Program-made: the position numbers and the translations under genes
Notes under the pieces: model-generated
What the model was told of the DNA's origin: nothing
Seen by the model: the letters and a program-made list of their open reading frames with translations, nothing else
The model's database searches: none
Shown: one piece after another, positions 373 to 14,523 of the stretch
Layout: every line of letters starts with the position of its first letter
Position numbering within the stretch: the first letter of the stretch is position 1
NCBI RefSeq assembly: GCF_903915725.1
Contig: NZ_CAIWTY010000090.1
Location: forward strand, 1-64,000
Length of the DNA: 64,000 bases
Direction: 5' to 3'
Source: an uncultured Rhodopila sp.
Lineage (GTDB): Bacteria > Pseudomonadota > Alphaproteobacteria > Acetobacterales > Acetobacteraceae

Positions 373-1962
373 TCAAGCCGGCATCATCCCGTCCTTCCGC
401 CAGGCACTGACCTTCCGGTAAACCGTGGACGGGTTAATCTCCAGCAACGCAGCCGCCCGCGGAATGTCGCCATCGGTGCGCGCCAGCGCCGCCAGGACCA
501 GGCGGCGCTCCATCTCCGCCAGGGGCATGATCTCAATCTCCGACACGATCGGACGCGCCAACCCCAACGGAGCGTGAACCGGCTCAGCAACGGCCTCCTC
601 CGGCGGCGGCAAAGGCACCGGCGGGCCATGGCTAACAGCGGTTTCGACAGGCGCCGGTTCGAACGCGGCCGGATGTGCCACCGCGGGCGGCAAAGCGGGA
701 ACGATCCGCGGCTCAGCCGCATAAGGCCGGTTAACCGGCGGCGGGATCATCCCCGGTGCGACCAGATCCGCATCGTGCAGCACCACGATATTCCGCACCA
801 CGTTCTGCAACTGCCGCACATTGCCCGGCCAGGGATACTCCACCAACATACGCTCGGCCTCGGGTGAAAAGCCGCGGAACCGCCGGTGCTCCTCCCGCGC
901 GAACTGGGCCAGGAAATGCCGTGCGATCAGCAGCACGTCGTCGCCGCGGTCGCGCAGCGGCGGCAGTTCCACCGGCACGACATACAGCCGGTAATACAGA
1001 TCCTCACGGAACCGGCCCGCCTGCACTTCCAGCATCGGGTCGCGGTTGGTGGCGCAGACGAAGCGCACATCCACCTTGGTCACCTTCGACGAGCCGACAG
1101 GGCTGAACGTCCCGGTCTGCACGAAGCGCAACAGCTTGACCTGCATGTCCAGCGGCATCTCGCCGATTTCATCCAGAAACAGCGTCCCGCCATCCGCCAG
1201 ACTCGCCGCCCCCGGCCGATCGGCCGTGGCGCCGGTGAAGGCGCCTTTGACGTGGCCGAACACCTCGCTCTCCAGCAGATCGCGCGGGATGGCGCCGCAG
1301 TTCAGCGCCACGAACGGCCCGCCGGCGCGCTGGCTGGACTTGTGCAGCGCCTCCGCCGCCAGCTCCTTGCCGGTGCCGCTTTCGCCAGTGATGAACACGC
1401 TCGCCTTGCTGCGCGCCACGCTCTGGATGATCTCATAGATCGCCCGCATCTGGTCCGACGCACCGATGAAGCCGGCAAAGCCCTTGCGGCCAAGCTTGGC
1501 TTCGGCGTCCTGCAGGCGAGTCTCCGCCCGGGTCAACTGGGACTCCAGCACCTCCCGGCTGCGGGTCAAGGCGCGGCGCTGCAAAGCATTGCGCAGCGTC
1601 ACCGACAGGCGGTCCTTGTTATAGGGCTTGACGACGAAGTCCTCGGCCCCGGCGCGAATCGCCTGCTTCGCCAGCTCCATTGAGGCGCTCGCCGTCACCA
1701 CCACGACAACCGCGTCGCTGCCCTCCTGCTTCAGGCGGCCGAGCAGCTCCAGGCCATTGTAATCCGGCAGCTCGATATCCAGCAGCAGGCCGTCCGGCTG
1801 CCAGTCCCGCGCCGCGGTCAGCGCCGCGCCGGCCGTGCCCGCAACGCGCACATCGTAGCCCAGCCCCGCCAGAAACAGACGCGCCAACTCGGCCTGTGCA
1901 GCCAGATCCTCGACCACAAGGATGCGTTCCGCGCCGCCCGTGGACACCGCCTGATCGCTCAT
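373..1962 (-). CDS. NtrC-type sigma-54-dependent response regulator of the EPS locus
   Basis: 529 residues. The N-terminal receiver has the acidic cluster VVED and a likely phospho-acceptor Asp62 (LLLDIELP). A coiled linker (about 130-160) leads to an AAA+ domain with Walker A GESGTGKE (193-200), the sigma-54 contact loop GAFTGA (240-245) and Walker B LFLDEI (261-266). A proline-rich linker and a Fis-type helix-turn-helix (about 480-525) complete the protein. All elements of an active bacterial enhancer-binding protein are intact. It is the last gene of the leftward EPS operon and its start overlaps the hpt stop (ATGA). Known analogues are the PrsR and VpsR-like regulators of polysaccharide loci. 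Four -24/-12 promoter sequences in this cluster are its probable targets (inference). Confidence 0.93.
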   Translation of the reverse strand: MSDQAVSTGGAERILVVEDLAAQAELARLFLAGLGYDVRVAGTAGAALTAARDWQPDGLLLDIELPDYNGLELLGRLKQEGSDAVVVVVTASASMELAKQAIRAGAEDFVVKPYNKDRLSVTLRNALQRRALTRSREVLESQLTRAETRLQDAEAKLGRKGFAGFIGASDQMRAIYEIIQSVARSKASVFITGESGTGKELAAEALHKSSQRAGGPFVALNCGAIPRDLLESEVFGHVKGAFTGATADRPGAASLADGGTLFLDEIGEMPLDMQVKLLRFVQTGTFSPVGSSKVTKVDVRFVCATNRDPMLEVQAGRFREDLYYRLYVVPVELPPLRDRGDDVLLIARHFLAQFAREEHRRFRGFSPEAERMLVEYPWPGNVRQLQNVVRNIVVLHDADLVAPGMIPPPVNRPYAAEPRIVPALPPAVAHPAAFEPAPVETAVSHGPPVPLPPPEEAVAEPVHAPLGLARPIVSEIEIMPLAEMERRLVLAALARTDGDIPRAAALLEINPSTVYRKVSAWRKDGMMPA

Positions 1963-2315
1963 GACGCGACCGGCGGTGCCCCGCCCGCAAGGACATCCGC
2001 GATCTGGCGCAGCGTCGCATCGGCAATCGCGCGGATCTCTATTGCCGTAGCGGCAATCGGGGCGTCAGGATCGAGGTTGGTCATCGCCCGGCGGCTGATC
2101 TGCTCCAGCGGTCCGGCCGCGACCGAGCCGGCGGCGCCGGCAAGGCCATGCGCGGCGGCGCGGAAGGCTTTCGCATCGCCCGCCCGTGCGGCGCTCTCCA
2201 GCGTCGCGACGAGGTTCTCGATATCCCCGCGCAGCAAGGTCAGAACCTGGATTATGTCTTCCGGGGAAAGATCTTCCGCCAGATGGGCGGCGAAGGAAGA
2301 GGGGTCGGTCGGCAT
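1959..2315 (-). CDS. Hpt phosphotransfer protein
   Basis: 118 residues, all alpha-helical in character, with the Hpt signature AAAHGLAGAAG. His56 is the expected phospho-acceptor. Hpt proteins relay phosphoryl groups between receivers of hybrid kinases and terminal regulators. The gene overlaps the NtrC-type regulator by ATGA and lies 31 bases after the CpsD-like gene, so it is probably co-translated with the regulator. No histidine kinase is encoded nearby, so the phosphate donor is presumably a hybrid kinase elsewhere in the genome. Family assignment is firm; partnership with the adjacent regulator is inference. Confidence 0.85.
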   Translation of the reverse strand: MPTDPSSFAAHLAEDLSPEDIIQVLTLLRGDIENLVATLESAARAGDAKAFRAAAHGLAGAAGSVAAGPLEQISRRAMTNLDPDAPIAATAIEIRAIADATLRQIADVLAGGAPPVAS

Positions 2316-2346: not shown

Positions 2347-3123
2347 TCAGACCCGTACCGTCAATATCGGCGAGCGGTGCATACGGGCCCGGAGCGCGGC
2401 CATCCAATCCGGGAAATATTTGGCAAAACGATACGTTTCTCGATCCAGTTCCGCAAGTAGCGACGGATTGTCGCGATCGTTCAGGATCGCGCCGATAAGG
2501 TTCGCCCCGGCGGCGGCAAGCTTCTCGCGCGCCTCGCGGATGCGGGTGCCGGAGGTTCCCCCGGCAAGGGTCACGAGAATGCAGACATCCGCCGCCGCCG
2601 CCGCGGTGATCCCCGCGATCTCTCCACTGTCCGCCGGGGACCGCCGATCGGCTTCGCTGGTCCGCCGCCCGCGGCGCCGCTCGTTGGATAGCAGCGGTGC
2701 GGTGTCGAGCACCACGGTGCCCCATTCCGAGCGCCAGGCCGCAAGCTGCTCGGTCAGCCGCGCCCGCTCCCGCCAGGCGTCGGCGGTTTCCGCGCCGATG
2801 CTTCCCAGCACGGCAAGGTTCATCCCCTCCACCCGGACGATCTCATCGGGTTGCGACGCCTGGCCCAGCATGTCCAATGCGCAGGGCCGCAGGAGATCGA
2901 GGTCCACCAGCAAGGCTTTCGGACGGACGGCCACCGGACGGCCTGGCTGCGCCGGCGTTTCCGCCGCGGCGGACTGGCCGGCGCGCCGCGCCAGGGCGAC
3001 CGCGATCTGCGAGGAGCCTTCCCGCGGCAGGGCCGACACCACCGCGATGCTGCGCGCACCGGTGGCCGAAATCGCCTGCCAGATTGAGTCGATTTCCGGA
3101 TGATAGGGCGAAATCAGGGTCAC
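2347..3123 (-). CDS. CpsD/CapB-like ATPase with degenerate Walker A (EPS biosynthesis)
   Basis: 258 residues, resembling the cytoplasmic domain of bacterial tyrosine kinases that control EPS chain length. A Walker A' motif (LLVDLDLLRP) and a Walker B-like strand (VVLDTAPLLS) are visible. The P-loop reads SALPREGSSQIA, so the GKS/T lysine of the usual PGEGKST is replaced by serine. The C-terminus lacks the usual tyrosine cluster. The protein may therefore be a pseudokinase or regulatory partner rather than an active autokinase (inference). The start overlaps the stop of the export gene by ATGA. A transmembrane Wzz-type partner is not encoded separately, although the export protein ends in a hydrophobic segment. 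Confidence 0.75.
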   Translation of the reverse strand: MTLISPYHPEIDSIWQAISATGARSIAVVSALPREGSSQIAVALARRAGQSAAAETPAQPGRPVAVRPKALLVDLDLLRPCALDMLGQASQPDEIVRVEGMNLAVLGSIGAETADAWRERARLTEQLAAWRSEWGTVVLDTAPLLSNERRRGRRTSEADRRSPADSGEIAGITAAAAADVCILVTLAGGTSGTRIREAREKLAAAGANLIGAILNDRDNPSLLAELDRETYRFAKYFPDWMAALRARMHRSPILTVRV

Positions 3124-5276
3124 AGCAGCACCTTGAACAGGCCGAAGATGGACAGCACCGAAACCACATCGCGGACGTTTTCCATGAAGATGGACCAGTC
3201 GCTTTGTTCCATTGAAGGAACGTAGATGGTGTCGCCCTGGCGGACCACCGGCAGCAGCGCGTAGTCGCCCGACTTGGCGAATTTCACCAGGTTGAAGATC
3301 CGCGCCTCGTTGGCGCAGCAGGACAGGTTGACCACGACGATCTTCTCCTGGTACGCAGAAGCGGATGGACCGCCGGCCTCGGCGAGCAGATCGAGGATCG
3401 TCATGCCTTCATTGAACTGGTAGCGGCCCGGCTTGCCGATGGCGCCCAGCAGCCGCACGGTGGAGCCGGGCGAAACCTCCAGCCAGTTGCGGCTGCGGTC
3501 CGGCACGAAGATCACATCGCCCGGCCGGACATGCGGCAGCAGGCGGTCATCGCCGGTTTCGAAGAACGCCGCGAGGTTGACCTTGGTCACCCGGTCCCGC
3601 CCCTCGCCCCGGTGCGACACCCGGATGTTCAGCAAATCGGCCTGCGCCGTCGGGCCGTCGGCGGCGGAGATGATGTCGAGGAAGGACAGCTTGTCCTCGA
3701 ACGCATAGCGGCCGGGATGGCCGACGGATCCCATCACGTAGATCGAACGATCGGACGACAGTTGCATCCAGGTCGCCCTGGTGTCGTTGGGGCTTTGCGG
3801 CAGTTCCGGCACCGTGATGGTGTAGCCGGCATGGATCGCCGGCATGCTCGCCGCGCTGCCACCGTTCGACATGAAATTCTGCAGATCGAACTTGACCGCC
3901 TTGCCCTTGTCGCCCTGGACGATCTCGACATGGGAGATGTCGCCGCGCTCGTTCGGGCCGCCCGCCTGGGCGATCAGATCGACCAGCGACATCTCGTCGG
4001 ACCAGTCGAATCGGCCGGGCGAACGCACCGCGCCGAGCACCCGCACCGCGCGGTTCGGCGGCGTGCGCAGCCAGCTTGCCTGCTCCGAGCTCTGCACCTT
4101 CTCCGGCACGAAGATCGCATCGCCCGGATTGACTACCGGCGGCGGCGTGCGGGTCCCGCTGGTAGAGTCGGTATAGGCAGCGAGGTCGAAGGCCGCGACC
4201 GTGCCGTTTTCGCGGATAATCCGGATCTGCTTGGTTTCGGCAAACCGGGTCGGGCCGCCGGCGTTGGCGAGGATGTCGAAGAAGCCGGTGCCGGGCCGCG
4301 CCTCGAACGCGCCGGGCTTGGCGACCTCGCCCATGACGTAGACGACATGGCCGCCGCTTTTCACCTCCTCGACCTCATGCGGAACGAAGACGGTGGTGCC
4401 GGACTGCAACGGAACGTTCAGCGCCTGCTTGCCGCTGTCGAGGAAGACCTTGAGGTTGAACAGCACCGGCTCCCCGGATGCGGGCAGGATGCGAATCTGC
4501 TCCACCGCGGCATAGCGGGTGACGCCGCCGGCGCGCAGCAGCGCGTCCATCACCGTCATGCCCGGCTTGAAGGCATAGGTGCCGGAGGTCGCGACCTCCC
4601 CGAACACCCGCACCGCGCCGCCTTCGCCGGCGTCGCCATGCGCCTCCAGGGAGCGGGCGTCGAACTCCACCTGCACGTTGCCGATTTGCGGGCTGGCGGG
4701 GACGAAGATTTCGTCAAGCGGACGCAACGGCGGCAGGATGCGGGTGTCACCGGTGTCGAGGTACTTCTTATAGTCGAACACGATGACCTGCGGCTGGCCG
4801 TCCGGTCCGAGCCGGCGGACCTGCATATGGTCAAGCTGTCCGCCCGGCGTGACTCCGCCCGCGGTGTTGATGGCGATCTGGGCGCTGCTGCCGGCGGGAA
4901 TCTCGATCTGCCCGGGCTGCTTGACGAAACCGAGCACGGTCAACGGCAGCCGGTGCTCCTTCAGCGCGAGGGCGAAGTGGTCGAGGTCGCGGAAGCTGAC
5001 GGCCAGCGCCGCGCGCACCTTCTCCCGCGCCTGGGCGATGGTCAGGCCGGCCACGGATACCGGTCCGGCCTCCGGCAAATCGATGTTGCCGTCGCGATCG
5101 ACCTTGAACGGGCTGTTGAAGGCGTCCTCGCTCGGCAGCGTAAGCTGCACCACATCGCCGACATTCAGCCGCAGAGCACCGCCGGCGGCCCCCTGCGTGT
5201 CCCCTTGGGCGGCGGCCGGCATGACGGCTGTCAGCAGCATCATCAGGGCGACCAACAGGCGGAGGAATTTTCGCAC
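3120..5276 (-). CDS. Large SLBB-repeat polysaccharide export protein (Wza-like)
   Basis: 718 residues, about twice the length of a classic Wza. A Sec signal peptide ends near AAAQG (residue 24) and is followed by a Poly_export domain (LRLNVGDVVQLTLP). About six SLBB-type repeats follow, each recognisable by a G-V/S-x-x-PG-x-(Y/F) strand and an AGG(P/V)T turn, as in GEVAKPGAFE, GSVGHPGRYAF and GAIGKPGRYQF. The last 20 residues (VVSVLSIFGLFKVLL) are hydrophobic. The predicted role is passage of the polymer across the periplasm and outer membrane. GTG start. It directly follows the lipoprotein gene and overlaps the CpsD-like gene. The signal peptide has no lipobox cysteine, unlike Wza. Confidence 0.88.
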   Translation of the reverse strand: MRKFLRLLVALMMLLTAVMPAAAQGDTQGAAGGALRLNVGDVVQLTLPSEDAFNSPFKVDRDGNIDLPEAGPVSVAGLTIAQAREKVRAALAVSFRDLDHFALALKEHRLPLTVLGFVKQPGQIEIPAGSSAQIAINTAGGVTPGGQLDHMQVRRLGPDGQPQVIVFDYKKYLDTGDTRILPPLRPLDEIFVPASPQIGNVQVEFDARSLEAHGDAGEGGAVRVFGEVATSGTYAFKPGMTVMDALLRAGGVTRYAAVEQIRILPASGEPVLFNLKVFLDSGKQALNVPLQSGTTVFVPHEVEEVKSGGHVVYVMGEVAKPGAFEARPGTGFFDILANAGGPTRFAETKQIRIIRENGTVAAFDLAAYTDSTSGTRTPPPVVNPGDAIFVPEKVQSSEQASWLRTPPNRAVRVLGAVRSPGRFDWSDEMSLVDLIAQAGGPNERGDISHVEIVQGDKGKAVKFDLQNFMSNGGSAASMPAIHAGYTITVPELPQSPNDTRATWMQLSSDRSIYVMGSVGHPGRYAFEDKLSFLDIISAADGPTAQADLLNIRVSHRGEGRDRVTKVNLAAFFETGDDRLLPHVRPGDVIFVPDRSRNWLEVSPGSTVRLLGAIGKPGRYQFNEGMTILDLLAEAGGPSASAYQEKIVVVNLSCCANEARIFNLVKFAKSGDYALLPVVRQGDTIYVPSMEQSDWSIFMENVRDVVSVLSIFGLFKVLL

Positions 5277-5681
5277 CTAGGTGCACATCGGCAGGGAGAC
5301 GGGGGGCGGGACCATCTCGTGGATCACCTGGTCGATGGCAGCGTCGAGCTCGGTCATGGTGATCCGGCTGTCATCGAACAACTGGCCGGCATATTCGCGC
5401 TTGGCCCGGGTGGCGGTGCTGTCTAGCAGGGCGATTTCCCCGCTGAACTGGCCGGTGCGTGCCGCGGCCTCGCGCAATGCATCCAGACGCCCCAGGGTGC
5501 AGCGCAGCCGATCGGCCAGGGGTGCGGGGGCTGGAGTCGTGGCGACGGCATCGGGCCAGCGGGCTTCAACCATGCCGCCGCGTCCAGGCTCAGGCCAGCT
5601 TTGCTGGCAGCCGGCGCAAAGTAGCACCAGCAGGACCGACAGGCTGCGAGCAGGGCGCGAAAAGGGCGGGGGCAAAATCAT
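5277..5681 (-). CDS. Small lipoprotein, first gene of the EPS export operon
   Basis: 134 residues. The N-terminal hydrophobic stretch LSVLLVLLCAGC is a lipoprotein signal (lipobox CAGC), so the mature protein should be anchored by a lipid-modified cysteine. The remainder is helical with no recognised domain; RLDALREAAARTG and a final IHEMVPPPV stretch are notable. The gene stops one base before the GTG start of the export protein, which suggests translational coupling. It may supply the lipid anchor missing from the SLBB protein (inference). The ATG has no clear ribosome-binding site. Confidence 0.65.
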   Translation of the reverse strand: MILPPPFSRPARSLSVLLVLLCAGCQQSWPEPGRGGMVEARWPDAVATTPAPAPLADRLRCTLGRLDALREAAARTGQFSGEIALLDSTATRAKREYAGQLFDDSRITMTELDAAIDQVIHEMVPPPVSLPMCT

Positions 5682-5868
5682 ATCGGCAAATCATGTAACC
5701 AATGCGCTGTGGCCTGGATTGCGGCCTGGATCGGCCGATGGATGGCAACAGCCGGCGACTGCGGCCCAGTCGCGAAAACCTTGACGGTTCAGGCGTGCGA
5801 TGCAGGTTCTGGCGATAGTGAGGGTCGTCACGGCAGCCTCCGGCAGCATGATTGTCGAACCCGCCGGC

Positions 5869-5884
5869 AGCAACGGACATGCCA
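5869..5884 (-). promoter_or_regulatory. Sigma-54 (-24/-12) promoter for the EPS export operon
   Basis: Read leftward the sequence is TGGCATG-TCCG-TTGCT, matching the consensus TGGCACG-N4-TTGCW with exact GG-to-GC spacing. A preceding C fits the Y of the extended consensus. Transcription would start near 5858 and leave a leader of about 175 bases before the lipoprotein gene. The operon itself encodes a sigma-54 activator, which fits autoregulation. Confidence 0.7.
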
Positions 5885-5911
5885 GCGGTTCGCCAACCAC
5901 GCTGCACGCGT

Positions 5912-5938
5912 ATCGCACCTTCCAATGCATTTTGCGAT
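5912..5938. promoter_or_regulatory. Candidate activator site: ATCGCA-N15-TGCGAT inverted repeat
   Basis: ATCGCA (5912-5917) and TGCGAT (5933-5938) form an inverted repeat with half-sites centred 21 bases apart, two helical turns. It lies between the two divergent sigma-54 promoters. A similar TCGCA-N16-TGCGA lies between the other divergent pair at 8422-8447. Binding by the NtrC-type protein of this locus is inference. Confidence 0.35.
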
Positions 5939-5967
5939 CTAATTCCGGCAGGAGTATATTTTCTGTG

Positions 5968-5983
5968 TGGCATGGAGATTGCT
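5968..5983 (+). promoter_or_regulatory. Sigma-54 (-24/-12) promoter for the GT4 gene
   Basis: TGGCATG-GAGA-TTGCT matches the -24/-12 consensus with exact spacing. The transcription start would fall near 5994, about 32 bases before the ATG at 6026. Its position inside the upstream in-frame extension of the next gene supports the shorter start. Confidence 0.7.
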
Positions 5984-6025
5984 CGGGACTGCCCGTCCCT
6001 CTCTTTGCAGCACACGGAGACACCG

Positions 6026-7093
6026 ATGACTGAGATCTGCCTGCTTCTCGATAGCCGTGGCCCGGGCGGCATCGAGAGCCATGTCGCGGAACTGGCCGCC
6101 GGCCTGCGCGCGGCGGGTGAGACGGTATGCGTTTTGTTCCTGCAGGATCATGGACCGCACCCGCTCCGCACCCGGCTGGATGCCGAGGGCATCGTCTGGG
6201 AGGTCCTTGGCGGCGGCGTATTTCCGCTGATCGCCCGGCTGACCGGGTCGCGGCGTCCGGCGCTGCTGCACACGCACGGCTACAAGGCCAACCTGCTGGG
6301 TCGCATCGCCGCGCTGCTGGCGGGCGTGCCGGTGGTCGCGAGCTACCACGCCGGGGAAAAGCCGCCCGGCATGCTGGCCTGGTATGATCGCGCCGATCGC
6401 TGGACCTCGTTCCTCGGCGGGCGAATTGCCGTTAGCCGGCCGATACTCGCGCGGCTACCGTTCGGCGGGACGCTAATTCCGAACTTCGTGGCGGTACCCC
6501 CGCAGCCGGCGGCCCGCACTCTGCGGGACGTTGTCGCGTTCGTCGGCCGCATGTCGCTGGAGAAAGGTCCGGATCTGTTTTGCGTGCTGGCGGCCGCGGC
6601 GCCCGGTCCCGAGTATGCCGCCTTCGGCGGCGGCCCGATGTTGCATGCGTTGCAGGCCATTCACGGCGAGCAGGTGACGTTCCATGGATCGCGCGACGGG
6701 ATGGACGGCGCCTGGCCCGGCATCGGCCTGGTGGCGGTGACGTCCCGGGCCGAGGGGCTGCCACTGGCGGTTCTGGAGGCGATGGCGAATGGCGTGCCGG
6801 TGGCGAGCTTCGCAGTCGGCGCGCTGCCCGAGGTGATCGAGGACGGCGTCAACGGTTTCCTGGCTCCGGCGGGCGATCTGGAGGCACTGGCCGAGCGGAT
6901 CAATCGCTGGCGGGCACTCGATGCCGACGGACGCTCTGCGATGTCGCGAGCAGCCCGTGCCACTGTGAGCCAGCGCTTCGGCCGCACAGCCGGGGTGGAG
7001 GCGATCCGCGCGTGCTACAACGGATTGCGCGGCCTCGGCGCAACCAGGCTGGCGGTCCCCGTCGCCGGCCGGACGGTGTGCCGGCCGGTTTGA
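6026..7093 (+). CDS. Glycosyltransferase family 4 (EPS)
   Basis: 355 residues with the GT-B layout. The N-terminal acceptor half opens with LLLDSRGPGGIESHVAELA, the glycine-rich loop typical of GT4 enzymes. The C-terminal donor half carries the E-x7-E motif in RAEGLPLAVLEAM and a GxGPM-like FGGGPM segment. It would transfer a sugar from a nucleotide donor to the growing lipid-linked repeat unit at the cytoplasmic face of the membrane. An in-frame extension exists upstream, but GGAGA sits 5 bases before the ATG at 6026 and the conserved fold begins there. The gene is transcribed away from the export operon from a likely sigma-54 promoter. Confidence 0.9.
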   Translation: MTEICLLLDSRGPGGIESHVAELAAGLRAAGETVCVLFLQDHGPHPLRTRLDAEGIVWEVLGGGVFPLIARLTGSRRPALLHTHGYKANLLGRIAALLAGVPVVASYHAGEKPPGMLAWYDRADRWTSFLGGRIAVSRPILARLPFGGTLIPNFVAVPPQPAARTLRDVVAFVGRMSLEKGPDLFCVLAAAAPGPEYAAFGGGPMLHALQAIHGEQVTFHGSRDGMDGAWPGIGLVAVTSRAEGLPLAVLEAMANGVPVASFAVGALPEVIEDGVNGFLAPAGDLEALAERINRWRALDADGRSAMSRAARATVSQRFGRTAGVEAIRACYNGLRGLGATRLAVPVAGRTVCRPV

Positions 7094-7202
7094 GGCGATT
7101 TCGACAAATCGGCCGGTTGCTCACGGTCTGCTTCTCCGCCGCCGTCATGGCCCAGCCCCGGTCTGATACAAGTCCGCGATTAAAGCGGCCCTTGCCACAA
7201 AA

Positions 7203-7294
7203 CGTCATGGCCCGGCTTGTCCGGGCCACCTGTCGCGGCACATGCCCCCTGTAGTTGGCACGACTATCTATGCAGACGAGCCCGGGACATCACG
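7203..7294. repeat. CGTCATGG-family intergenic palindromic repeat
   Basis: CGTCATGGCCCGG (7203-7215) is followed by CCGGGCC (7221-7227). The segment ends with CCGGGACATCACG (7282-7294), an imperfect inverted copy of its start. A partial copy of the same start (CCGTCATGGCCC) lies at 7142-7153. It sits between two convergent glycosyltransferase genes and may also end transcription. The remaining bases of 7094-7391 hold no credible gene; a 6-bp hairpin CGATTT/AAATCG lies at 7096-7111. Confidence 0.5.
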
Positions 7295-7391
7295 CTGAGC
7301 GTCGAGGCGGCCCGGCACAGCCTCGTGCCCCGCACATCATGCCAGCTTGAACGCTCGCCCAAGCCGTCAGGCATCTGCGGGAGCGACACCT

Positions 7392-8318
7392 CTAACGGCT
7401 GCAGGGTTGGTAGATCGCGCCCATGAGGTCATAGGCGGCGCGGCGCGTCGGTTGCTCCGCAAGTGCGCGCGCTCGCAACGCAACCGACCGGAGACGTTGG
7501 CCGCCGGCCTCGGCAATCTCTGCCCGGGCGGAATAAATGCGAGCTTTAAACCCGCTATCGGCGGTCGGATCCTCCGCCAGCGCGTCGGCCCTGTGACGCT
7601 CGGCGATCAGGCGCATCGCCATAACCCGCAGATCCATCCGGCCGGTGAGGTTGCCCGGCCGGTGCATCAGGTAGTCGGCCAGGATCCGCGGCACCACGCC
7701 CACCGGGGCGCGTCCCGCCAGAGTGAGCCACAAATCCCAGTCCTCGGCGGATGCCAGGCCGGTATTGAAGCCGCCAACCTGCTGAAGCAGATCGGTTCGC
7801 GCTATCACGGTTGACGTGCCCACGACATTTTCCGCGTAGAGCATCGCCACCGGACGATCGAGAATGAAGGACTCAGTCGCGGTTCCATAACGGGCGGCGA
7901 AGCGCGGCCAGTAGGCGAAGCAGCCGCCGCGGTCCTCGTTCCGGGTGGTGACATGACGGTAATCGGTGAAGGAAAAGCCAATCTCCGGGTGCGCGCGGTG
8001 AAGGGCGAGCTGGGCATCCAGCTTGCCGGGCAGCCAGCGGTCGTCGGCATCCAGAAAAGCGACCAGGGGTGCGCGCACCGCGCCGATGGCAAGGTTGCGT
8101 GCCCGCGATGGACCAGTGCGCGATCCATGCATGAAGCGCACCCTTGGATCGGCCACGGCCAGCTCGCCGAGCCAGGCCAGGGTGCCGTCGGTCGAGCCGT
8201 CATCGACGATGAGAATCTCGGCACCGGCATAGGCCCCTATCGACTCGATGGCGGCTGGAAGCCACTGCAGCGCATCACGGGTCGGGATGATCACGCTGAC
8301 TTCGGGCCGGTTATTCAT
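7392..8318 (-). CDS. Glycosyltransferase family 2 (EPS)
   Basis: 308 residues. The GT-A fold is evident from VSVIIPTRDALQWL at the N-terminus, the nucleotide-binding EILIVDDGSTDGT strand, SRARNLAIGAVRAP and the metal-binding VAFLDADDRWLPGK. Later SAEDWDLWLTLA supplies the acidic residues of the acceptor side. An in-frame extension to 8390 exists, but a GAGG ribosome-binding site lies 8 bases before the ATG at 8318 and the family start falls there. The gene runs leftward, convergent with the GT4 gene and divergent from the next GT4. It has its own likely sigma-54 promoter at 8400-8415. Confidence 0.9.
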   Translation of the reverse strand: MNNRPEVSVIIPTRDALQWLPAAIESIGAYAGAEILIVDDGSTDGTLAWLGELAVADPRVRFMHGSRTGPSRARNLAIGAVRAPLVAFLDADDRWLPGKLDAQLALHRAHPEIGFSFTDYRHVTTRNEDRGGCFAYWPRFAARYGTATESFILDRPVAMLYAENVVGTSTVIARTDLLQQVGGFNTGLASAEDWDLWLTLAGRAPVGVVPRILADYLMHRPGNLTGRMDLRVMAMRLIAERHRADALAEDPTADSGFKARIYSARAEIAEAGGQRLRSVALRARALAEQPTRRAAYDLMGAIYQPCSR

Positions 8319-8399
8319 AAAGGGTGCCTCATCATTCGCTGCCTGAGCGCCGCGCTGCATCGCAAAAGAGCGCTGCGGGCCTGACGTCAATGTAACAAA

Positions 8400-8415
8400 T
8401 GCAATAAACGCGCCA
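8400..8415 (-). promoter_or_regulatory. Sigma-54 (-24/-12) promoter for the GT2 gene
   Basis: Read leftward: TGGCGCG-TTTA-TTGCA. It has exact -24 GG and -12 GC spacing and a perfect TTGCA box, with one change (A to G) in the -24 element. The start would lie near 8390, about 70 bases before the gene. Confidence 0.6.
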
Positions 8416-8421
8416 TCGTTT

Positions 8422-8447
8422 TCGCAGCAATCCCTCTCGATTTGCGA
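8422..8447. promoter_or_regulatory. Candidate activator site: TCGCA-N16-TGCGA inverted repeat
   Basis: TCGCA (8422-8426) and TGCGA (8443-8447) lie between two divergent sigma-54 promoters. The arrangement nearly duplicates the repeat at 5912-5938. Its role as an enhancer for the local NtrC-type activator is inference. Confidence 0.35.
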
Positions 8448-8487
8448 GGCTTTTTGCCTGTTCGATTCCGAGAATGTTTCGCGGGCG

Positions 8488-8503
8488 TGGCATGACCGAT
8501 GCA
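8488..8503 (+). promoter_or_regulatory. Sigma-54 (-24/-12) promoter for the GT4-flippase genes
   Basis: TGGCATG-ACCG-ATGCA has exact spacing and a single change in the -12 box (ATGCA instead of TTGCA). The start would fall near 8514, about 43 bases before the gene at 8557. Confidence 0.55.
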
Positions 8504-8556
8504 GCTATGATGGTGTCGCCGTCCGCGCCGGACGGCTCGGGCAGGGAAACGCCGCC

Positions 8557-9801
8557 ATGGACGCCAGTGCAACACCAAACGGGTCAAGCCTTGCAGGCAC
8601 CGCGCCACCGCTTTCCATTTTGTATGTGCTGGACGCCTTTCCGGTGCTGTCGGAAACCTTCGTCACCAACGAGATACGGGCGATGCGGCAAATGGGGCAC
8701 CGGATCGTTCCATTCTCGATCAGCAACTATACCGGTCCCTGCCAGCCGGACGACGAACCGATGAAGGCCGAGACGCTGCATCTGTCAGATGTCTCCACGC
8801 TGCGCGCGGCCGCCTTCGCCGCGATGCACCCGCGCGGCATGGCCGCGGCGCTGCGATTCGCAAATCGCCAGACCGGCATCAGGCCGCGGTCGCTGCTGCG
8901 CGCCGCCGCACGGGTCGCCTTGGCGGCCAGGCAACAAGGATGCACACATTTGCATGCCCACTATGCCCACTCGACGGCGGCAACCGCCATCGTCGCGGCG
9001 GCGTTCGCCGGGTTGACTTGTTCCTTCATCGGCCACGGCTTCGATATCTACGGTCAGTCGAGCGATCTGCCGCTGAAATTGGCCTCGGCCGACGTGGCTT
9101 TCGCAACCTGCGAGGACATGGCGGCGGACTTTCGCCGGATGGCGCCGGGGGTGAACGCCCGGATGGTGACCTGCGGCGTCGATCCGGACCGCTTCGTCCC
9201 GGCCCCGGACGCCGCCAGCAACGGCCGCCTGCTGGCGATCGGGCGGCTGGTCGAGCAGAAGGGCTATCCGGTCCTGTTCGATGCCCTGGCGCTGCTGCCG
9301 GCCGATCGGCGGCCGGTCGTCGATGTCGTCGGCGGGGGTGCGCTGGAGGAGGAGCTGAAACAGCTCGCCATCCGCACCGGTGTCGGCGACAGCGTGCGGT
9401 TTCTCGGCCGCATGCCGTCCGCCTGGATCGCGCAGGAAGGCCCGCGCTACCAGGGTTTCGTCGCGCCCTATGTGGTGTGCAGGGACAACGACAAGGATAC
9501 CAGCCCGGTCGCGGTGAAGGAGGCGCTGGCCATGGGGCTGCCCGTGGTCGCGTCCCGCCTGATGGGGTTGAAGGAAAGCGTCAATGCATCCTGCGGGCGG
9601 CATGTCGAACCGGGCGATGCCGCGGAGCTCGCCGATGCCATCGCCTGGCTGGCCGGCTTGACCGCGCAGCAGCGCCAGGCCCTGGGCGCCGCCGGACGCC
9701 AGCATGCGCTGGCCAAATTCACCCTGGCAGCACAGGCAGCCGGCAACACCGCCGCCATCCGTGCGGCTCAGGCCGCAAGGACCCCAAGATGCGCCGCCTG
9801 A
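8557..9801 (+). CDS. Glycosyltransferase family 4, WcaL/AmsK-like
   Basis: 414 residues. The N-terminal ILYVLDAFPVLSETFVTNEI is the signature of the colanic acid WcaL/amylovoran AmsK group. HLHAHYAHSTAATA and FIGHGFDIYG (acceptor side) follow, then GRLVEQKGYPVL and GGGALEEELK in the donor half. The usual E-x7-E appears as DTSPVAVKEAL, with Asp in place of the first Glu. It would add a sugar to the lipid-linked repeat unit. The last 13 bases overlap the flippase start, so the two are co-translated. Confidence 0.88.
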   Translation: MDASATPNGSSLAGTAPPLSILYVLDAFPVLSETFVTNEIRAMRQMGHRIVPFSISNYTGPCQPDDEPMKAETLHLSDVSTLRAAAFAAMHPRGMAAALRFANRQTGIRPRSLLRAAARVALAARQQGCTHLHAHYAHSTAATAIVAAAFAGLTCSFIGHGFDIYGQSSDLPLKLASADVAFATCEDMAADFRRMAPGVNARMVTCGVDPDRFVPAPDAASNGRLLAIGRLVEQKGYPVLFDALALLPADRRPVVDVVGGGALEEELKQLAIRTGVGDSVRFLGRMPSAWIAQEGPRYQGFVAPYVVCRDNDKDTSPVAVKEALAMGLPVVASRLMGLKESVNASCGRHVEPGDAAELADAIAWLAGLTAQQRQALGAAGRQHALAKFTLAAQAAGNTAAIRAAQAARTPRCAA

Positions 9802-11264
9802 TCGGGTTCATCGAGCTGATCCCGAGCGGGCTGCGGGCGACTTTTTTCTATGCGGCGGCGATGGCCTGGATCAAGGGCCTGTCGATGGTGACGATCCCGG
9901 TGCTGACGTCGATGTTGACGCCGGCCCAATTCGGCCGCCTGGAGCTGCTGTCCTCAGCCGCCGAGATCGGCGGGCTGATTACCGGAGCGGGCCTGGTCGA
10001 TACCTTGTTCCGCTTCGCTTCGGTACCGGGCGCCGCCGGAAGGCGAGCGGGCGCGGAGGTCGCCGGGTTGTCGCTGTGCATCGCCGCAATCGGTATCGCG
10101 AGCGTGGCCTTTCTGGCGCCGGTGATCGCGGCGGCGATGCCGCTGGCGACCCCAAGCAGCGACATCGTGCTGCTCGGCATTGCGGTGGCACTGGAATCGG
10201 CGATCGGGGTGCCGCTCGGATGGTTGCGGATGCACCAGCGGGCGGCCGCGTTCGCCGCTTTGTCGATGGCGCGGGCCTCGCTGCAGGCGGCGCTGGTGGT
10301 GGCGCTGGTCGTGACCGGCCATGGCGTCGCGGGCGTGCTGTGGGCGGGATGCGTGACAACGCTGATCGTCGCCTCGGTGCTGACGGTCCGGCAGAAGCGC
10401 GAGACCGGAATTGTGGTTGCCCCGCGCGCCAGTTTGCGGCTGCTGGCCTACGGGCTGCCGCTGATTGGCAGCGGGCTGGCGGCGTTCGTGCTCGGGACGG
10501 CCGATCGATGGCTCTTGGCGGGGACGGTGTCGGCGGCATCGCTGGGGCAGTATGGCCTGGCCGCGAAAATCGCGGTGATCACGGCGCTGCTGGCGCAGCC
10601 GTTCGAGATGTGGTGGTACCCGCAGCGCCTCGGGCTCGTCGGCTCTCCGGAGGGGCTGGCGCGGTCAAGCCGCGTGGTCAGTGCCGGCGCCGCCGGGCTG
10701 CTGTGCGCGGGGGCGGCTACGGCGCTCGCCAGCCCGTGGCTGATCACGCTGCTGGCGCCCCCGAGCTATTCTCCGGCGCAAATGATGGTGCCGTTCCTGG
10801 TGCTGGCGGTGGTGCTCCAGTTGCTGAGCAGCATGGCGAACGCCGGGTGCTACGCGCGCAAGACCAGCAACCTGACGATGCTGATTACCGCCATCGCGGC
10901 GGCGATCACGCTGGCGCTGTATCTGCTGCTGATCCCGCGCATGGGGGTGTACGGCGCGATCGCGGCGACGGTGGCCGGACAGGCGGTGCGGCTGGCGATG
11001 TTCGCGGTGATTTCACAGCGGACGGTCCCGTTGCAGTGGCCGCTGGTGCGGCTGTCGGCGGTTGCGGTGGCCGGCGTGGCGGCGGGGGCGGCTCCTTTGG
11101 TCCTGGGTATCGATGCGTTCGGCGCCGGGGTGGGCGCGGGCGCGCTGGTGGTGACGGTCGTTCTGGCGCTGCCGGTTATTCTCGGGCGCGGGGGGATTAC
11201 GGCGGTTGTTCGCCGCTTGACCCGGGGGAAGACGGAACTGCGGCAGTCCTCCGCAGGGGCATGA
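9789..11264 (+). CDS. Wzx-like oligosaccharide flippase
   Basis: 491 residues of alternating hydrophobic segments, about 12-14 predicted membrane helices. The N-terminus (AAAMAWIKGLSMVTIPVLTS) and LTPAQFGRLELL are typical of the polysaccharide-export/MATE-like flippase family. These proteins move undecaprenyl-linked repeat units across the inner membrane. The ATG at 9789 overlaps the preceding glycosyltransferase. No Wzy polymerase or initiating phosphoglycosyltransferase is visible in the window, so those steps must be encoded elsewhere. Confidence 0.88.
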   Translation: MRRLIGFIELIPSGLRATFFYAAAMAWIKGLSMVTIPVLTSMLTPAQFGRLELLSSAAEIGGLITGAGLVDTLFRFASVPGAAGRRAGAEVAGLSLCIAAIGIASVAFLAPVIAAAMPLATPSSDIVLLGIAVALESAIGVPLGWLRMHQRAAAFAALSMARASLQAALVVALVVTGHGVAGVLWAGCVTTLIVASVLTVRQKRETGIVVAPRASLRLLAYGLPLIGSGLAAFVLGTADRWLLAGTVSAASLGQYGLAAKIAVITALLAQPFEMWWYPQRLGLVGSPEGLARSSRVVSAGAAGLLCAGAATALASPWLITLLAPPSYSPAQMMVPFLVLAVVLQLLSSMANAGCYARKTSNLTMLITAIAAAITLALYLLLIPRMGVYGAIAATVAGQAVRLAMFAVISQRTVPLQWPLVRLSAVAVAGVAAGAAPLVLGIDAFGAGVGAGALVVTVVLALPVILGRGGITAVVRRLTRGKTELRQSSAGA

Positions 11265-11352
11265 CGGAGTCGACGAGGTTCGCCACACCGGCGGCGGCGT
11301 TCGTCTCATGGCAAGCCGGTTTTTGGCATTCGTTCTCACAGGAGACGCATTC

Positions 11353-12267
11353 ATGACTCCCCTGCCGAAACCCGATTCGATCGCGCCGGCCGATCGGCTG
11401 GCGGCGATCACCCTGGCGGCCGAGGCTCGCATCGCCGCCCTGCAAGCGGGCAGCGGTCCCGACCTGACCCGGCGGGTGGACTCCGCCATCGCGCTGCTGG
11501 ACAGGGCCATGCCCGGTCGGCGGTATCAGGATCTGCCGGAGGAGCTGGCTGATCTTGCGGCGGGCGATGGGGCGTTCCCGGCGCTGCTGGCAGCGAGGCT
11601 GCTTGCCGGGGTTGCCGCCCGACGTCCGGCGCGGCTGGTGCCGGATGCGGTACTGCCGGAATTGTCGCGGCAAGCAACACGCATCCTGGCGGCCGACAAG
11701 CCGAACCTGGATGACGACGTCTTCCGCAAGGACCTGTCGATCTGCCTGCTGCTGTCGTTCCCCTGCGTCGCGCAGGTGGTTGAGCAGATCGGAGGCATCC
11801 CCCGCCGCGCGCTGACCTCCGGCGGCCCCGGCCAGGCGTTGCGGCTGGGCGCGTATCTGAGCCGCACGGGCCTGCGACCGGGGCCGTATCTGGAAATCCA
11901 TACCCACACGCCGATGCTGGATGGATTCAACGAGGCCGGGTGGGAACGCTGCTACGAGCTGGTAGCGGAATTGCTGGCGGCTCGCCCGCATTGCCCGGGC
12001 ATGGTGGGCGGAAGCTGGTTCTATGACCCGGCACTGGCGAAGATCAGCCCCCGGCTGGCCTATCTCGCTGATACGCCCATCGGCGGCGGCGCATTCCGGG
12101 TGCGGCTCGGGCCGTCGGAGGAGGATGCCGAACTGGCCACCGCGACCTCATCGACGCGGCGGGCACTGGTCGAGGCGGGAACATACGTGCCGACGAAGTG
12201 GCTGTTGATCTGGCCGCGCAAGGCGCTGCTGGCCTGGGCCGCCGCCCGCCGGGGAGAGCCGCGATGA
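11353..12267 (+). CDS. Unknown EPS-locus protein
   Basis: 304 residues, no family recognised. It has no signal peptide or membrane segment. The first half is Ala/Leu-rich and helical. The second half has conserved-looking blocks: GPYLEIHTHTPMLDGFNEAGW, GMVGGSWFYDP and YVPTKWLLIWPRK. The His/Asp/Glu-rich block and the aromatic core suggest an enzyme or a specific binding fold. The ATG at 11353 has GGAG 8 bases upstream and is preferred over an earlier in-frame ATG at 11308. It overlaps the deacetylase gene by ATGA, so the two probably act in the same polymer-modification step (inference). Confidence 0.75.
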   Translation: MTPLPKPDSIAPADRLAAITLAAEARIAALQAGSGPDLTRRVDSAIALLDRAMPGRRYQDLPEELADLAAGDGAFPALLAARLLAGVAARRPARLVPDAVLPELSRQATRILAADKPNLDDDVFRKDLSICLLLSFPCVAQVVEQIGGIPRRALTSGGPGQALRLGAYLSRTGLRPGPYLEIHTHTPMLDGFNEAGWERCYELVAELLAARPHCPGMVGGSWFYDPALAKISPRLAYLADTPIGGGAFRVRLGPSEEDAELATATSSTRRALVEAGTYVPTKWLLIWPRKALLAWAAARRGEPR

Positions 12268-13247
12268 GACGGATGAAACTGCTGCTGCTGCGCACCGCCC
12301 GAGCGCTGGGCGGCTTCGCCTTGGCGCGCCGGTTGACACGCCAGGGCGTGCGCATCCTGTGCTACCATGGCACCTGGCGGGCCATGGACGGATTTGCCGG
12401 CGATTCCATGTTCATCGGCAAACAAACGTTCCGCCGGCGTTTGGAGACCATCCGCAGACTGGGCTATCCGGTGATACGTTTGTCCGACGCGGTGCGCGCC
12501 CTGCGCGGGGAGGCAGCCCTGCCCGATGGCAGCATCGTCATCACGATCGATGACGGCTGGTATGGCACCTATGCCGACATGCTGCCCGCCTTGCGGGAAC
12601 ACGGTATGCCGGCGACCTTGTATTGCGACAGCGGTACCGTGCAGTCCCGCCAGGCGGTGCCGCATGTCATGGCGCGGTGGCTTCGTGCAGCGAACGGGCG
12701 TGGTCCTCTGCCCGAAGCGGCGGAACGGGCGTTCGCCGCCGCGACGGATATTCCCGCGCCGCTGGCGTCCCGGTTCGCCGCTTTGGATCGCTTCGCCGCG
12801 GCAGCCGGGATCGACCCGGCACCCTACAAGGCGGCGCGGGCGTTCGACTACATGCTGCCCGAGGAGTTGCGTGCGGCGGCCGAGGCGGGACTGGACGTCC
12901 AGTTGCATACTCACAACCACACGCTGAGCGACCTCTCCGCGTCGTCGGTCAAGGCTGAGGTGGCGGCCAACCGTGCCGCGCTGGCGGAGATGCTGCCTGC
13001 ATCCGCCGCGCCGCTGGAGCATTTCTGCTATCCGAGCGGGGTGTGCTCCGCCGAGGCGGGGGAGACTTTGGCGAGCGCCGGCGTGATCAGCGCCACCACG
13101 ACAGCGCAGGGCATCGCGCGGAAGGGCATGAACCCGTATCTGCTGCCGCGGCTGCTGGACGGCGAGCAGGTGAGCGATATCGAGTTTGAGGCGGAACTAT
13201 CGGGGTTCGCCGACTTCGTGCGCGGCCTGAAGGCAGGGGCGCGCTGA
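12264..13247 (+). CDS. Polysaccharide deacetylase (NodB-like)
   Basis: 327 residues. CYHG near the N-terminus, the metal/catalytic motif ITIDDGWYGT (the TFDDG motif of NodB proteins) and a His-rich QLHTHNHTLSDL motif are all present. FCYPSGVCS fits the later substrate-groove motif. It probably removes acetyl groups from the EPS or from a precursor. The sequence lacks a clear signal peptide, and the N-terminal KLLLLRTARALGGFALARR is only weakly hydrophobic, so the location is uncertain. The gene starts within the stop of the preceding unknown gene (ATGA), with a GGGGAGAG ribosome-binding site. Confidence 0.87.
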   Translation: MRRMKLLLLRTARALGGFALARRLTRQGVRILCYHGTWRAMDGFAGDSMFIGKQTFRRRLETIRRLGYPVIRLSDAVRALRGEAALPDGSIVITIDDGWYGTYADMLPALREHGMPATLYCDSGTVQSRQAVPHVMARWLRAANGRGPLPEAAERAFAAATDIPAPLASRFAALDRFAAAAGIDPAPYKAARAFDYMLPEELRAAAEAGLDVQLHTHNHTLSDLSASSVKAEVAANRAALAEMLPASAAPLEHFCYPSGVCSAEAGETLASAGVISATTTAQGIARKGMNPYLLPRLLDGEQVSDIEFEAELSGFADFVRGLKAGAR

Positions 13248-14384: not shown

Positions 14385-14523
14385 TTCGGGCATGGTCGTT
14401 GCATTTTCGCCACAGCACCGTGTTCGAGGCTCCGGTTGGCGTATTGCCGGTGTATCGGGTACCCTTATTATTATGACCGGCCGCGTTCCGAAGCCGCAAG
14501 CAAGACGATGGGGAGAAGACACG

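Follow-up and report, generated by a model that had tools for sequence, protein, structure and literature searches.

A probable LuxO/SypG-type, sigma-54-dependent exopolysaccharide regulon in an uncultured Rhodopila genome

The first 64,000 nucleotides of contig C90 in the draft genome of an uncultured Rhodopila sp. (G000; 6.7 Mb, 111 contigs), a freshwater bacterium related to the acetic-acid bacteria, hereafter the window, probably hold the core of an exopolysaccharide (EPS) regulon that would be controlled by a LuxO/SypG-type response regulator through a phosphorelay and would depend on sigma-54. Four -24/-12 promoters (P1 to P4) stand in two gaps between divergent genes (gap A, 5682-6026; gap B, 8319-8556). 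A box resembling the LuxO enhancer of vibrios recurs upstream of such promoters in related loci, and pairs of box and promoter co-occur with the regulator across the genus. The evidence consists of promoter and box sequences, gene content, conservation and co-occurrence. In the handles used below, G denotes genomes of the same genus (n = 33), L denotes loci and C denotes contigs. The 32 related loci (L025-L055 and L088) belong by title to Acetobacteraceae or Rhodospirillales, a few being given only as Alphaproteobacteria or Proteobacteria.

Promoters of the two divergent gaps

Scoring of -24/-12 elements was performed with a sigma-54 matrix at every position and on both strands of the window, and chance expectation was obtained from 60 simulated windows of first-order Markov sequence. 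The four 16-mers singled out by a first-pass annotation of this DNA lie exactly at the coordinates and on the strands it gave (Table 1) and took ranks 1 to 4 of the whole-window scan, with 18.9, 18.9, 17.0 and 16.0 bits. Four sites in the window score at least 15.9 bits against 0.40 expected, and none of the 60 simulated windows reached four. In each, TGGC (-24) and TGC (-12) stand at the fixed spacing, and all four are directed outwards from within gaps A and B, which jointly make up 0.9% of the window. By sequence, P1-P4 are real sigma-54 sites; the leaders would be about 176 bases long for P1 and short for P2-P4. A single rpoN match was found in the genome. The first-pass annotation had also seen no convincing sigma-54 site elsewhere in the window, and this holds at a threshold of 14.5 bits, since the next site, at 14388 (14.6 bits), is at chance level (1.25 sites expected at 14.5 bits or more). 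That site overlaps the ATG of a kinase gene at 14392 and was rejected.

Comparison with relatives demonstrated unequal conservation of the four promoters. P1 is kept in the window and in 7 of 7 gap-bearing relatives (12.5 bits in G024, at least 15.6 elsewhere). P2 is identical at 16 of 16 positions in G006, has weak scores of 11.2-13.9 bits in G024, G009 and L042, and among the gap-bearing relatives compared it was not found in L027, L028 and L038. Scores in G006, G024 and L027 were 15.6, 13.8 and 18.2 bits for P3 and 11.3, 12.6 and 19.3 bits for P4; all four promoters of G024 fall within 12.5-13.8 bits. The decay of P2-P4 in relatives would fit a reading in which the -24/-12 matches are accidental and transcription starts from sigma-70-type promoters. 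We regard such an accident as highly improbable, as the four top scores of the window, with 0.4 expected, are packed into 0.9% of its length, P1 is kept in all seven relatives, and the boxes described below recur at set distances.

A LuxO-type box upstream of the promoters

Alignment of gap A from four genus genomes revealed a conserved element between P1 and P2. An unbiased search for dyads was performed upstream of 63 non-redundant sigma-54-like sites taken from the 32 related loci and the window. Ranked by z-score, the top 3-base dyad was GCA-N3-TGC (32 of 63 sites, 5.9 expected) and the top 4-base dyad was GCAANTTGC (16 of 63 sites, 0.58 expected), while the largest counts for any dyad over 60 simulations were 27 and 8, respectively. 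The box consensus derived from these dyads, TYGCA-N3-TGCRA, lies upstream of promoters and is close to the LuxO enhancer of vibrios, TTGCAWWWTGCAA (PMC10162802). With at most one mismatch and within 150 bp, the box was found at 28 of the 63 sites, as compared with a mean of 2.25 and a maximum of 7 in 200 random draws of stretches from the same loci. The loci and window together contain 34 exact and 103 one-mismatch boxes, versus 5 and 82 in one simulated copy of each. When distance is taken from the box centre to the first base of the -24 element, 24 of 43 boxes are centred at 25-26, 35-38 or 47-49 bp.

In the window, an enhancer of the TTGCA-N3-TGCAA type is present in a one-mismatch form in gap A and in a degenerate form only in gap B. 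The two boxes of gap A together read ATCGCA-N15-TGCGAT (5912-5938), and box 1 is retained in the alignment of G006, G024 and G009. At the position of the degenerate gap B box, G024 has a perfect one. Among the other exact sigma-54-like sites of this genome (13 outside the window), none of the 8 tested has a box. More distant loci (L056-L087 and L089-L104) have a box-bearing site in just 2 of 48 cases, and no extension of the arrangement to this group was observed. The data are also suggestive of helical phasing of the boxes relative to the promoters. The signal is strong over 26 promoters, where related promoters inflate it, and not significant for the medians of seven position groups (p = 0.17). 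Within one class, the promoters that lie 0.7-1.2 kb upstream of the regulator start (9 loci, 10 distances), p was 0.011, and 0.004 after one of two equal distances was dropped.

Table 1 Coordinates of promoters, boxes and genes in the window (distances from box centre to the first base of the -24 element)
Feature	Position	Strand	Remarks
P1	5869..5884	-	sigma-54 promoter TGGCATG-N4-TTGCT, ahead of the 5681->373 unit (export protein, Hpt, regulator)
P2	5968..5983	+	sigma-54 promoter TGGCATG-N4-TTGCT, ahead of GT4 gene, ATG at 6027
P3	8400..8415	-	sigma-54 promoter TGGCGCG-N4-TTGCA, ahead of GT2 gene, ATG at 8318
P4	8488..8503	+	sigma-54 promoter TGGCATG-N4-ATGCA, ahead of 8557->13247
Box 1, gap A	5925..5937		ATGCATTTTGCGA, one mismatch; 37 bp to P2, 47 bp to P1
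Box 2, gap A	5913..5925		TCGCACCTTCCAA, one mismatch; 35 bp to P1, 49 bp to P2
Degenerate box, gap B	8435..8447		TCTCGATTTGCGA, two mismatches; 26 bp to P3, 47 bp to P4; weak alone
LuxO/SypG-like response regulator	373..1962	-	receiver, sigma-54 AAA+ domain with GAFTGA, Fis-type helix-turn-helix
Hpt phosphotransfer protein	1959..2315	-	PF01627, E 1.2e-8; 4-base overlap with regulator start
Weak polysaccharide tyrosine autokinase-like protein	2347..3123	-	23.3 of 108 bits, under cut-off
Polysaccharide export protein	3120..5276	-	several SLBB domains
First gene of P1 unit	5277..5681	-	no family match; homologous in relatives
GT4 glycosyltransferase	6027..7093	+	open reading frame scanned from 5852
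GT2 glycosyltransferase	7392..8318	-	open reading frame scanned to 8390
P4 unit	8557..13247	+	GT4, two proteins without family match, polysaccharide deacetylase

Regulon members on other contigs

The 33 genus genomes were scanned with a pattern of exact box plus promoter. Seven genomes matched, once each, against one genome for the reversed-pattern control. Where the regulator is at least 63% identical, a threshold set afterwards, 6 of 6 genomes have a match, versus 1 of 27 others (Fisher p = 6e-6); in G029, which has no close regulator, the match falls within a predicted open reading frame. Genomes with only a 52-55% relative of the regulator had no match to this pattern. The match in G024 is its gap B, those in G002 and G031 lie before a GT2 gene and a sugar transferase gene, and those in G000, G006 and G009 lie before glmS. 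A variant pattern, TTGCA-N3-TGCRA plus promoter, matched none of the 33 genomes (control, 1).

In this genome, the box before the C40 glmS gene is exact and lies 35 bp from a sigma-54-like site. G006 and G009 share the exact box, in G006 at 35 bp as well; that of G024 has one mismatch and the same 35-bp distance, and in L027, L028, L038 and L039 glmS directly follows the regulator with a box at 36 bp. Another GlmS, encoded on C18, is 38% identical to the C40 copy and has no box; the C40 gene is therefore probably dedicated to EPS. A hybrid histidine kinase gene adjoins glmS on C40, and 5 of the 32 loci (L033, L034, L035, L047 and L050) encode full-length relatives of this kinase (48-54%) at 2-5 kb from the regulator, the C40 kinase being a candidate for the first relay step.

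C68 ends with a box, a promoter and then the first 17 codons of a gene that encodes a GT2 protein in G006 and G024. The G006 contig end matching C68 shares about 140 bases with the contig of the regulator, and in G024 the C68-type GT2 gene adjoins the regulator on one contig. Position 1 of the window is itself the contig end beside the regulator, with its counterpart end at G000:C68:123064. No overlap of 25 bases or more between C68 and C90 was found in this genome, and most of the GT2 gene is missing between them. The remaining member, a GT4 gene on C106, was predicted by a half-box scan; its box, in this genome as in G006, has one mismatch and is centred at exactly 35 bp. Half-box scans of four genomes gave 25 and 17 matches versus 6 and 5 for the reversed controls. 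This genome accounts for 10 matches (controls, 3). Four are polysaccharide units, namely two in the window, glmS and the C106 GT4 gene; the rest are one on C95 near another activator and five more, C88 included. The C95 site is a conserved sigma-54-like site with similar flanks in three genomes (G000:C95:23073, G006:C86:72595 and G024:C168:20224), the nearby activator being at C95:20551. Taken together, the three box-bearing promoters on C40, C68 and C106 speak against the self-contained regulon of the first-pass annotation.

Exact boxes alone numbered 31 in this genome versus 11 for the reversed control. A box without a promoter was rejected as a regulon marker, with 28 of the 31 having no sigma-54-like site within 250 bp. 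A box-like palindrome was also observed 104 bp before a sigma-54-like site at G000:C110:66894 (L166) and, at equal distance, at G006:C89:67907 (L150).

Control of the box-bearing promoters by the regulator, its own operon included, is supported by comparison, because related loci share the LuxO-type box at promoters and box-promoter pairs co-occur with the regulator. On these grounds the earlier proposal that the NtrC-type protein at 373-1962 controls all four units may stand, with less assurance at P3 and P4, where the box is degenerate. Several observations weigh against the regulon as drawn here. Of the 63 sigma-54-like sites, 35 have no box of at most one mismatch, such a box is missing at P3 and P4 of this window, and in L027 P3 and P4 are strong (18.2 and 19.3 bits) yet likewise without it. 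P2-P4 are less conserved than P1 and weak or absent in several relatives. The glmS promoter scores just 13.8 bits here and in G024 (15.6 in G006 and G009), and the C68 box is 191 bp from its promoter (179 in G006, 304 in G024). A sigma-54-like site lies within 250 bp of just 3 of the 31 exact boxes in the genome. One of these three, the C110 box, precedes a Phenol_Hydrox family hydroxylase gene (L166), which together with two other activators on C110 indicates that it probably belongs to another regulon. The box pattern was derived partly from genomes that were later scanned, and the 63% threshold was chosen after the fact. Finally, the 12 strong PF00158 matches in the genome comprise this regulator and 11 other sigma-54 activators.

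With so many activators, and only a degenerate box at P3 and P4, P1-P4 could all be sigma-54-dependent while at least one of them is driven by another activator, the local regulator acting on P1 and P2 only. We consider this division unlikely. The P3/P4 gap of G024 has a perfect box, box-promoter pairs track the presence of the local regulator, and in relatives the gap B genes are part of the same cluster.

The regulator, its proposed relay and known systems

The best NCBIfam match of the regulator is LuxO (NF041946) with 560.9 bits, below the equivalog cut-off of 800; a Vibrio relative (L060), which may be of SypG type, likewise falls below it at 599 bits. The best solved relative is LuxO 5ep0 (430 bits; best non-LuxO, 306), and the recognition helix reads NPSTVYRK versus SPSTVYRK in Vibrio relatives. 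With LuxO as the closest family and structure, a receiver, an AAA+ domain with GAFTGA and a Fis-type helix-turn-helix, the protein is of LuxO/SypG type in the broad sense. It is 92, 88 and 76% identical in three genus genomes. A tblastn match to Hpt lies directly upstream of the regulator in 24 of the 32 related loci (the L047 contig, at least, ends short). Hpt and regulator would thus form a LuxU-LuxO kind of pair, orthology not being thereby proven.

The first-pass annotation had named the activator PrsR-type and the cluster exosortase-type. A floc-forming bacterium offers a precedent, its EPS and PEP-CTERM genes being linked to PrsK-PrsR and RpoN (PMC9850573), and the SLBB export protein of the window does pass the TIGR03027 (XrtA-type export protein) cut-off, barely, with 182 of 180 bits. 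The regulator itself, however, reached only 359.1 bits against PEP_resp_reg (PrsR, TIGR02915; cut-off 502.6), so that a PrsR-type assignment is not supported. Another protein of the genome passes at 614.5 bits; this true PrsR is encoded on C34, about 13 kb from the only exosortase match (PF09721) of the genome, both within the stretch C34:24000-41500 (L230) and thus outside the EPS cluster. No exosortase is among the NCBIfam matches listed for the 20 window open reading frames scanned, and the C34 stretch yielded no sigma-54-like site scoring 15 bits or above. The PrsR/exosortase label therefore fits another locus. As the boxes upstream also match the LuxO enhancer, PrsR/PEP-CTERM-type control of the window's cluster was rejected as extremely improbable.

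Since LuxO is the best-scoring family and an Hpt partner is present as in LuxU-LuxO, the regulator might be mainly a quorum-sensing LuxO that acts via small RNA, with EPS control secondary. We consider this extremely improbable: wherever genes downstream of box-bearing promoters are identified, they are polysaccharide genes, glmS or the Hpt-regulator operon, and the regulator scores under the LuxO cut-off, although no search aimed at a small-RNA gene was made. The regulator lies inside a polysaccharide cluster with several sigma-54 promoters, as expected for the SypG type.

Further elements were observed in related clusters. TGGCACG-N4-TTGAA occurs at L027:17558, L028:17602, L038:17630 and L039:8152, also at L113:11553, and as TTGAT at L042:17644. 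Its location, some 7.6 kb downstream of the start of the regulator, is conserved. The spacer is variable and both motifs are kept, but the -12 element lacks its usual GC; in L038 the gene directly after it has a weak Wzz match that falls below the cut-off. At L116:3284-4498, the G024 cluster encodes a GINT1_N domain protein (glucosamine inositolphosphorylceramide transferase 1, N-terminal); GINT1 is a name known from plants.

From the above evidence we infer binding, activation, feedback and the phosphorelay partners as follows. A hybrid histidine kinase, probably the one beside glmS on C40, would phosphorylate its own receiver domain and then Hpt, and Hpt would pass the phosphate to the response regulator. 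The phosphorylated regulator would bind TYGCA-N3-TGCRA boxes and, using ATP, open RNA polymerase-sigma-54 at P1-P4. The gap A boxes sit between back-to-back promoters, so one bound assembly on the two adjacent boxes could fire in both directions. P1 precedes the Hpt-regulator operon, and positive feedback on that operon would follow. The same boxes would serve at least three outside promoters, those of the C40 second GlmS (precursor supply), the C68 GT2 and the C106 GT4. A more speculative proposal, which we hold only tentatively, is that an EPS phosphorelay of the LuxO family, so far undescribed, is widespread among Acetobacteraceae and their relatives. Its two-way switches would need no long DNA loop, each being a compact pair of enhancers set between back-to-back sigma-54 promoters, some 25-50 bp from each -24 and at whole-turn spacing. 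If that were true, polysaccharide control would be an old role of the LuxO/SypG family. Through the present comparison, an orphan NtrC-type regulator from freshwater bacteria that have received little study is connected with a defined DNA box, a likely phosphorelay and a set of genes, precursor supply among them. The comparison also suggests that LuxO-type boxes persist in Alphaproteobacteria, offers gap A as a testable two-way sigma-54 promoter, and illustrates that regulon members across contig ends can escape a window-bound view.

Several known systems invite comparison. In Desulfovibrio vulgaris, the two-component sigma-54 activators DVU0110 and DVUA0057 are predicted to control exopolysaccharide and biofilm operons (PMC4641369), by description a sigma-54 control of EPS like the one proposed here. 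The introduction of the same paper places sigma-54 activator sites at least 100 bp upstream (PMC4641369). The SypG-responsive region of V. fischeri qrr1 reaches to -60 (PMC10162802), so the closeness of the boxes to -24 is not new by itself. In the accessible portions of the open-licence literature, no description of such a system in Acetobacteraceae was found, and the scv survey, in its accessible text, gives only Elstera and Terasakiella among Alphaproteobacteria (PMC8941931). PrsK-PrsR shares with the present locus an NtrC-type regulator, sigma-54 and EPS, and differs in that the regulator here fails the TIGR02915 cut-off and the genome's true PrsR and exosortase lie elsewhere. The LuxU-LuxO phosphorelay of vibrios likewise consists of an Hpt protein and a LuxO regulator (PMC3843225), and the enhancer TTGCAWWWTGCAA and a near-identical recognition helix add to the likeness. 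Unlike LuxO, the regulator scores 561 bits against a cut-off of 800, and the targets found are EPS genes and not qrr small RNAs, no search for such RNA having been made.

Overall, the locus appears to work like the syp regulon of Vibrio (Aliivibrio) fischeri, a scheme known from marine vibrios, in which the sigma-54 regulator SypG governs a polysaccharide cluster with four promoters (PMC3843225). In the syp and scv systems (SypG, ScvE/RbdG), kinases such as the hybrid SypF stand upstream (PMC3843225, PMC8941931). As with SypG/syp and ScvE/RbdG, the sigma-54 regulator is encoded with the polysaccharide genes it would control from several promoters. The best matches to the SypG enhancer, TTCTCANNNTGMDWN, have two mismatches in both gaps and fall on the LuxO-type elements, the two motifs overlapping by nature; in contrast to syp, the LuxO form describes the box here more closely than TTCTCANNNTG does. 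The locus further differs from syp in its gene content and host class, in the separate Hpt gene beside the regulator, in the gap A boxes common to back-to-back promoters, and in the second glmS that would belong to the regulon.

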